Of a DNA stretch of 44,521 bases, positions 11,051 through 33,884 are shown piece by piece. The notes below the pieces were generated by a model that did not search any database, was not told the DNA's origin, and saw nothing but the letters and a program-made list of their open reading frames with translations. Each line of letters opens with the position of its first letter. The stretch's first letter is position 1. Source of the DNA: Bacteroidota bacterium (GTDB lineage: Bacteria; Bacteroidota; Ignavibacteria; Tepidaquicellales; Tepidaquicellaceae); assembly GCA_018266845.1 (NCBI GenBank), contig JAFDZO010000035.1, positions 1 through 44,521 of the forward strand. Reading direction: 5' to 3'. A program made the position numbers and the translations under genes.

Positions 11051-11157
11051 AAACTCTCCCCTTGAGGGGAGTACTTTCGCGAAGCGAAAGGGAGGGGTGT
11101 TTAAAGAACACCCACCGTCTCGCTTTCAGCGAGCCACCTCCCTCAAGGGAGGAGTTT
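11051..11157. repeat. Solo 107-base five-hairpin palindromic element (copy A of the DUF559-linked family)
   Basis: The ends are inverted (AAACTC at 11051, GAGTTT at 11152-11157). Inside are five consecutive hairpins: 11056-11071 (CTCCCC/GGGGAG), 11074-11090 (CTTTCGC-GAA-GCGAAAG), central 11095-11113 (GGGTGTT/AACACCC, loop TAAAG), 11119-11133 (CTCGCT-TTC-AGCGAG), and 11137-11152 (CCTCCC/GGGAGG). The element is nearly symmetric about the central loop. A near-identical copy lies at 19684-19789, differing by one base in the first loop and by the central loop. It looks like a non-autonomous, MITE- or REP-like repeat. Confidence 0.85.
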
Positions 11158-19557: not shown

Positions 19558-19609
19558 GAACACCCCTTGCCTTCACTTCGTTCAGGCGCTCCCCTCAAGG
19601 GGAGAGTTT
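19558..19609 (-). repeat. Variant half-copy (copy D) of the DUF559-linked palindrome
   Basis: Read on the minus strand it begins AAACTCTCCCCTTGAGGGG and ends AGGGGTGTTC, as in the left half of the full element. The second hairpin is replaced by GCCTGAACGAAGTGAAGGC, which still folds around a GAA loop. Different stem, same shape and same loop. Confidence 0.75.
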
Positions 19610-19683
19610 CGCGTTTTTGAAAATAATGTTAGTTTTGAAATATAGTTTTATCTAAAGAGTAAAACATTAAAACACCAGTTTCT

Positions 19684-19789
19684 AAACTCTCCCCATGAGG
19701 GGAGTACTTTCGCGAAGCGAAAGGGAGGGGTGTTTATACAACACCCACCGTCTCGCTTTCAGCGAGCCACCTCCCTCAAGGGAGGAGTT
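19684..19789. repeat. Full five-hairpin palindromic element (copy B)
   Basis: Same five-hairpin structure as 11051-11157. The side hairpins, arm hairpins and inverted ends are identical apart from TTGA -> ATGA in the first loop. The central loop is TATAC instead of TAAAG, so the loop is the freely varying part. It ends 100 bases upstream of the DUF559 start codon. Confidence 0.85.
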
Positions 19790-19828
19790 AATAATTTTTG
19801 TAAGAAAGTTTATTGAAGTTAAGGAACA

Positions 19829-19881
19829 AAATTCTCCCCTCGAGGGGAGTACTTTCGCGAAGCGAAAGGGAGGGGTGTTTT
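19829..19881 (+). repeat. Left half-copy (copy C) joined to the DUF559 start
   Basis: AAATTCTCCCC-TCGA-GGGGAG hairpin, the CTTTCGC-GAA-GCGAAAG hairpin, then GGGAGGGGTGTTT. The sequence stops at the point where full copies have their central loop. The DUF559 ATG follows eight bases later at 19890. The G-rich GGGAGGGG could act as a distant ribosome-binding site. Confidence 0.8.
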
Positions 19882-19889
19882 TAGAAAAA

Positions 19890-20258
19890 ATGAAATACGA
19901 AATAATAAAATATCATCCTTCCTTAAAACCATTTTCACGTAAATTAAGAAAAGAAAGCACACTCTCTGAAATTCTCCTCTGGGATAAACTCAAAAACAAG
20001 CAGCTCTTTGGTTATAAATTCCTGCGGCAAAAACCGATTGATAATTTTATTGTGGATTTCTTCTGCAAAGAACTAATGCTTGCAATAGAAATTGATGGTT
20101 CATCACATAATGAAAAAGTTGAGCAAGATTTAGAAAGGCAAATGAAAATAGAGAACCTTGGAATTAAATTTTTACGATTTCAGGATAAAGATGTTAGATT
20201 TAAAATGAACGATGTATTGATTACTATTGAAGGCTGGATAAAAGAAAATAGTTTGTAA
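19890..20258 (+). CDS. DUF559 endonuclease-like protein
   Basis: 122 residues from the ATG at 19890. A longer reading from 19695 would encode 65 residues of repeat DNA, so I reject it. DUF559 is a PD-(D/E)XK/Vsr-like nuclease fold. Visible pieces: LRKESTLSEILLWDKLKNKQ (20-39), GYKFLRQKPIDNFIVDFFC (41-59) and LAIEIDGSSHNE (64-75), giving candidate metal ligands D56, E67 and D69 with H73 close by. The C-terminal FLRFQDKDVRFKMNDVL matches the family end. It would be a small DNA endonuclease of unknown target. The gene is directly attached to a half-copy of a palindromic repeat that also exists solo in the window (see findings). Confidence 0.9.
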   Translation: MKYEIIKYHPSLKPFSRKLRKESTLSEILLWDKLKNKQLFGYKFLRQKPIDNFIVDFFCKELMLAIEIDGSSHNEKVEQDLERQMKIENLGIKFLRFQDKDVRFKMNDVLITIEGWIKENSL

Positions 20259-20320
20259 CGCATATCACCTCCTTTTCACTTTGATTTAAAAAAAAATGCT
20301 GTATCTTTTTCAAAAAAATT

Positions 20321-33524: not shown

Positions 33525-33884
33525 ATGAAAGAAAGTGTTGTGGTTATAAAAAGCTTTGATTTCGCTATAAGAATCGTAAATCTTTATAAATATCTTGTTG
33601 ATAAGAAGAAAGAATATGTAATGTCTAAACAGGTATTGAGGTGTGGGACATCTATCGGCGCAAATGTAAAAGAATCCAGAGACGCTGAGTCTAAATTAGA
33701 TTTTATTCATAAATTATCAGTGGCATTAAAAGAGGTAGATGAAACTTCCTATTGGTTAGAACTTCTTTGCAAAACGGAATTTATTTCTATAGAACAATTT
33801 GAAAACTTAAATGATAATGTTGTTGAGCTCCGAAAAATAATTTCTTCTATTATACTTACAACAAGGCAAAATCTTAATTCATAA
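33525..33884 (+). CDS. Four-helix-bundle protein (S23 / 23S rRNA intervening-sequence type)
   Basis: 119 residues, soluble, all-helical by appearance. Family signatures: SFDFAIRIVNLYKYL (10-24), QVLRCGTSIGANVKESRDAESK (about 37-58, the most conserved part), FIHKLSVALKEVDETSYWLELL (about 61-82) and the last helix VVELRKIISSIILTTRQNL. This is the TIGR02436/S23-like family, first noticed in intervening sequences of 23S rRNA genes and related in fold to Avd of diversity-generating retroelements. Here it is not in an rRNA gene: it lies between a thiolase and pgsA, bounded on both sides by inverted repeats; its last bases overlap the right repeat. Molecular function is unknown. Confidence 0.9.
   Translation: MKESVVVIKSFDFAIRIVNLYKYLVDKKKEYVMSKQVLRCGTSIGANVKESRDAESKLDFIHKLSVALKEVDETSYWLELLCKTEFISIEQFENLNDNVVELRKIISSIILTTRQNLNS

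Follow-up and report, generated by a model that had tools for sequence, protein, structure and literature searches.

Single-domain DUF559 nuclease genes associate with triplex-type repeats: a candidate transposase-free selfish element

The DUF559 gene and its repeats in the window

The window (the whole stretch of DNA analysed here, 44,521 nucleotides from a Bacteroidota bacterium) carries a gene for a single-domain DUF559 protein, preceded by copies of a palindromic repeat (Table 1). Sequence analysis of the window resolved the repeat into two half-units in inverted arrangement, each consisting of a pyrimidine-purine hairpin and, after it, a third block of purines in mirror order to the second. 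The motif of the left half-unit reads CTCCCC-TCGA-GGGGAG-(20 nt)-GAGGGG. An earlier note on this DNA had described a five-hairpin repeat in one full, one solo and two half-copies, and we recovered all of them in the same places, with identities of 78–97%. The left half-copy indeed ends where full copies have their central loop, eight bases before the DUF559 ATG at 19890. Structure prediction also gave five hairpins for the full copy (z = −6.7; 0 of 200 shuffles equally stable), but the feature common to DUF559 loci is the triplex motif described below and not the set of five hairpins.

Table 1. Coordinates of the DUF559 gene, the repeat copies and a further repeat-framed gene in the window.
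Feature	Position	Strand	Details
Solo full copy without a gene	11051-11157	+	97% identity to 19684-19789; motifs 11056-11097 (+) and 11111-11152 (-)
Inverted half-copy	19558-19609	-	78% minus-strand match; motif 19562-19604 (-)
Full copy (inverted half-unit pair)	19684-19789	+	Motifs 19689-19730 (+) and 19744-19785 (-)
Left half-unit (LE)	19829-19881	+	91% identity to full copy (match to 19886); motif 19834-19875, faces gene
DUF559 (PF04480) gene, single-domain PD-(D/E)XK/Vsr-like nuclease	19890-20258	+	122 aa from ATG 19890; Pfam E = 1.4e-29
Possible decayed right half-unit remnant	20268-20281		12/14 bases, just past the stop codon; may be a chance match
23S_rRNA_IVP (PF05635) four-helix-bundle gene	33525-33884		Between inverted AT-rich repeats (gaattctgaattctgaggtatgagttctgaatt upstream, inverse downstream)

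The strict triplex motif, for which all three blocks are required, occurs six times in the 44.5 kb window, every time within a repeat copy, and four of the six fall within 330 bp upstream of the DUF559 gene. Genome-wide, the window repeat has about 39 matches (3.5 Mb, 46 contigs). The motif scan of the window found no intact right half-unit after the DUF559 stop codon, and Rfam and tRNA scans of the whole window gave no matches. The true start of DUF559 is uncertain, because its frame is open upstream across the repeats and reaches an ATG at 19695. Between 19695 and 19889 the repeats are in frame with DUF559, and use of the upstream ATG would add ~65 repeat-encoded residues at the N-terminus.

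The PF04480 profile matched the protein with 102.6 bits against a gathering cut-off of 20.6. Residues E27, D56, E67 and D69 were invariant among 20 sequences, and H73 was conserved in at least 90% of them. The AlphaFold2 model (pLDDT 87.5) matched best to 3HRL (Z = 16.3), which we take to be the crystal structure of the gonococcal DUF559 protein, followed by I-Bth0305I (Z = 12.4, rmsd 2.1) and Vsr (Z = 9.8); the product of the gonococcal DUF559 gene matches the 3HRL chain along the compared stretch. The conserved acidic residues and these matches bear out the PD-(D/E)XK/Vsr-like fold that had been assigned to the protein in the earlier note. The dN/dS ratios of 0.02–0.27 in comparable pairs indicate that DUF559 is under purifying selection. 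In Caulobacter, the SOS response of cells without a cytosine methyltransferase requires VsrA, a DUF559 protein (PMC12907096). Given the catalytic residues, the selection, the fold and the role of VsrA, it is plausible that DUF559 is an active nuclease.

The source genome contains two DUF559 genes. The second (L001) forms a complete unit, in which inverted copies of another repeat family frame the gene (left-right alignment score of the flanks 40.5), and this family (cccctcc..ggggttaggggtggtt) itself recurs in the source genome. One genome therefore has two repeat families, each with its own nuclease gene.

The triplex motif and its association with DUF559

The DUF559-linked repeats share a common plan of pyrimidine block, loop, purine block, spacer and a further purine block. 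The latter mirrors the first purine block, G being opposite G and A or T opposite A, as in the purine-motif triplex code (e.g., GAGAAGGGGG with GGGGGTTGAG in G003). Across 164 informative hairpins, a 7/7 fit was reached by 45% under the mirror code and by 20% under a direct copy (p = 5e-5), and the mirror code also fitted better than shuffled tails. This pattern identifies the DUF559-linked repeats as predicted intrastrand-triplex motifs of the BoxC/PIT/TM kind, with which they share the three-block layout (pyrimidine, purine, mirror purine), the inverted pairs and the repeat-linked instability. All six window half-units contain the pyrimidine block, the purine block and the mirrored third purine block, of at least 6 nt each. 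Their second loop, however, has 20–21 nt and a nested hairpin, compared to loops of 1–6 nt in the ITxF definition, so we regard the window family as a long-loop variant and not a strict member. The second loop is short in other DUF559-linked families, for instance TTA in E. coli. The loops of triplex hairpins often contain additional short hairpins or repeats (tttcgcgaagcgaaa, gcggctttagccgc, tgtcaaagccagttcttcgac; L157/L170, L145, L162, L177 and loop 2 in the window), as if they were insertion targets.

BoxC/PIT/TM repeats have been known in E. coli since the 1990s, and later in Neisseria and cyanobacteria; we know of no enzyme partner for them. The element is thus not undescribed in the sense of the earlier note, as far as the kind of repeat is concerned. 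We found no report of its link to DUF559 in open-access full text, and an earlier description may exist elsewhere. As reported by Holder et al. 2015 (PMC4666352), the triplex motif is present in more than 260 genomes and is tied to local genome instability in E. coli. The E. coli motif folds into a triplex in vitro, according to CD and NMR, whereas DMS footprinting in vivo showed no stable triplex; for the window family, such folding is predicted from the sequence. No gene partner of the motif was known, and by their own account Holder et al. never found mobility activities, or remnants of a transposase or integrase, near it.

The association of DUF559 genes with triplex repeats is near certain. 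A strict motif lay within 200 bp of 93 of the 130 single-domain DUF559 genes. Upstream, it was found at 82 of the 130, compared to 14 of 280 control genes (p = 4.5e-37; the compared genomes are related, so the tests are not fully independent). The earlier note had proposed to test whether the repeat is commoner beside DUF559 than beside other genes, and it is: most DUF559 genes have it, and unrelated genes seldom do. The motif was present on either side of 72% of single-domain DUF559 genes and 10% of controls, and on both sides of 35% and <1%, respectively. Where a control gene had a free upstream stretch of 150 bp, the motif preceded it in 13 of 140 cases (p = 1.6e-21 against single-domain DUF559), and clustering of DUF559 at 70% identity (95 clusters) gave a mean motif fraction of 0.67. 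Among the upstream motifs, 56% point at the DUF559 gene and 23% away from it. About 28% of single-domain DUF559 genes have no strict motif within 200 bp, and many of these have degenerate or other hairpins.

Measures other than the strict motif gave the same contrast. A G+C-rich upstream hairpin preceded 52 of 68 single-domain DUF559 genes and 11 of 138 controls (p = 1e-23). The upstream flank aligned with the inverted downstream flank (score ≥ 15) for 56% of single-domain DUF559 genes and 0.7% of controls. As an internal control we used DUF559 domains that are part of larger proteins; these had a left-right inverted repeat in 0/5 and an upstream hairpin in 1/5. In Cytophagales and relatives, DUF559 domains occur in proteins of ~500 aa without flanking repeats (L034-L036, L038, L039), seemingly at one shared place in several Bacteroidota genomes.

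The link is also visible at the level of genomes. The median number of motif hits was 19.5 in genomes with single-domain DUF559 and 1 in those without (p = 1.4e-5; 59 genomes, kinship ignored), with a few of the hits per genome supplied by the DUF559 flanks themselves; a reversed control pattern had a median of 1 in both groups. Some genomes without DUF559 carry motifs, for example 43 in G004; the repeats can therefore persist after loss of the gene or depend on different partners.

The arrangement spans bacterial phyla and is not particular to the source genus. DUF559 is present in 42 of the 59 genomes of the class, and loci from other phyla, picked by protein similarity only, gave the same repeat picture; the link was seen in Ignavibacteria-like relatives, other Bacteroidota, Nitrospirota, a planctomycete and Cyanobacteriota. 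An upstream hairpin accompanied 91% of 22 single-domain DUF559 genes from 12 distant genomes and 76% of 21 DUF559 genes at the best Cyanobacteriota loci. In E. coli, a repeat of the triplex type lies downstream of the DUF559 gene ycjD (L375, L382). The gonococcal DUF559 gene (3HRL) has the repeat on both sides, as direct repeats, and the repeat is also near the DUF559 genes of Azospirillum and Picosynechococcus PCC 7002.

Signs of mobility and alternative explanations

The recurring unit, of about 0.5 kb, consists of a triplex half-unit, DUF559 and an inverted triplex half-unit, and it occurs as dispersed or tandem paralogues. In G019, two DUF559 paralogues with 89% amino-acid identity lie in unrelated places, and their homology is confined to the stretch from the left hairpin through the right arm. 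G003 has a repeat-gene-repeat-gene-repeat array and, at a separate place, a third copy. Across genus g17 we compared an orthologous intergenic site that is empty in G035 (74 bp). It has the hairpin alone nearby in G037 and contains the DUF559 unit in five other species (G029, G032, G034, G038 and G039), some of which have the gene in reverse orientation. Pairs of species with DUF559 at the same orthologous site have the gene in opposite directions (L131 vs L159, L144 vs L169), as if it had been inverted between the flanking repeats or inserted independently.

E. coli has a single, fixed ycjD, which we rejected as a clean present/absent insertion and as an excision polymorphism: of 5426 E. coli genomes, 3364 have the gene (sapF-fabI locus; L375, L384), and the other strains inspected have a multidrug efflux operon there. 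The E. coli pstB-pstA region is polymorphic for an 85-bp solo-repeat segment with the 7-bp repeat AACCGTG on either side; insertion with duplication and deletion between repeats explain it equally well. Beyond this one ambiguous case, no clean target-site duplication was found, and indels of 22–260 bp between syntenic species pairs included no clean motif insertion. The paralogous units and the filled and empty sites are compatible with mobility of the unit.

We lean, with modest confidence, towards single-domain DUF559 being the gene-bearing partner of the triplex repeats, the two forming a transposase-free selfish element copied by cutting and break repair. It is rather unlikely that the repeats are fragile, recombination-prone sites which spread without the nuclease, and at which DUF559 genes have accumulated as passengers. 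The instability described by Holder et al. (PMC4666352) and the motif-rich genomes without DUF559 would agree with such passengers. Other small mobile-looking genes of the related genomes, however, do not gather at the motif, which was beside none of 24 GIY-YIG, 28 IVP and 15 Y1_Tnp genes (0/67 together). Moreover, DUF559 often sits inside a pair of inward-facing motifs, beyond mere nearness, and gene and repeat recur as a single discrete paralogous block.

About equally unlikely, or slightly more so, is a non-mobile, addiction- or defence-like pair, in which DUF559 would be a Vsr-like repair or restriction-type nuclease and the motif either a control element or a site that is protected or targeted. 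The fold match to Vsr, the part of Caulobacter VsrA in mismatch-linked DNA damage (PMC12907096) and a weak PADLOC similarity to methyl-directed REases speak for it. VsrA shares the fold and has a DUF559 domain, but Vsr is tied to the repair of 5mC mismatches, and no cytosine methyltransferase gene was present among the ORFs at 17.5–22.5 kb of the window, a linkage that is typical of Vsr and not universal. The motifs also lack promoter or terminator activity, according to earlier work as cited in PMC4666352, and the two-sided inverted pairs, the dozens of gene-less copies and the genome-specific families resemble the ends of an element.

The arrangement recalls REPtrons and REPINs with RAYT (TnpA-REP), in which a single-domain enzyme gene lies between inverted palindromic repeats and many solo or paired copies have no gene. 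The window enzyme is, however, a PD-(D/E)XK nuclease and not an HUH Y1 transposase, and its repeats follow the triplex mirror code. It is very improbable that they are conventional REPs mobilised by a RAYT/Y1 transposase, with DUF559 there by coincidence, even though Y1_Tnp genes are present in 34 of 40 relatives. By inspection, the palindrome foot at the ends of the window copies carries no tag of the GTAG/GTGG (or CGTC) type, and none of the 15 Y1_Tnp genes lies by a motif. The sister genome G001 lacks Y1_Tnp genes yet has the same repeat family together with 7 DUF559 genes, which excludes RAYT as a necessary mover and supports the statement of the earlier note that no transposase is present; we rejected RAYT as the mover on these grounds. 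Chance or composition, in the form of GC-rich, terminator-like hairpins beside solitary genes of any kind, can be practically set aside: some controls (8%) do have upstream hairpins, but they already contradict it for the three-block motif (63% vs 5%, or 9% with free upstream DNA) and the left-right inverted similarity (56% vs 0.7%).

Proposed mechanism and other repeat-framed genes

For the selfish element that we favour, we infer structure-specific cleavage with copying by repair. A single repeat strand, exposed on the lagging strand or at a nick, would fold into a hairpin or triplex, which DUF559, as a Vsr/I-Bth0305I-like enzyme, would recognise and then cut. Break repair would copy the whole unit or the repeats alone, with homology arms supplied by other copies of the repeat; the repeats would thus be target and homology arms alike. 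In this way the gene could home into repeat pairs while gene-less solo copies build up. Cutting and break-repair copying are favoured because the enzyme class suggests cutting over strand transfer, and because the nearest well-defined selfish nuclease spreads likewise. Homing endonucleases spread selfishly through cutting and break repair, and they typically, not universally, reside in an intron or intein. I-Bth0305I, an EDxHD/Vsr-like homing endonuclease, was the second-best fold match; the window DUF559, in contrast, is a free-standing intergenic gene with no intron or intein, framed by many-copy repeats.

Other small genes are framed by repeats as well, among them the 23S_rRNA_IVP gene of the window (Table 1). 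Its counterparts in relatives show left-right inverted similarity in 23 of 28 cases, a score that low complexity may inflate. Solo GIY-YIG genes (L209, L211, L216, L217, L225, L226; L208, L214, L224) were observed in two settings, either directly after a tRNA gene, in which case the tRNA 3′ end recurs downstream in inverted form, or flanked by cccgcgaaagcgggaatc or gagcggagtcgaag repeats. They offer a lead for CGTC-type REPs, which reportedly have no transposase of their own.

It is possible, and we put it forward tentatively, that DUF559 proteins are pan-bacterial nucleases for intrastrand triplexes or hairpins that spread transposase-free elements by homing-type repair, that the GIY-YIG and 23S-IVP genes with their own inverted repeats are parallel systems, and that small non-transposase proteins drive a good part of the small dispersed repeats of bacteria. 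A nuclease partner makes the origin, spread and instability of BoxC/PIT/TM repeats directly testable with one small protein of known crystal structure (3HRL), and DUF559, a widespread family of unknown function, gains a candidate role.
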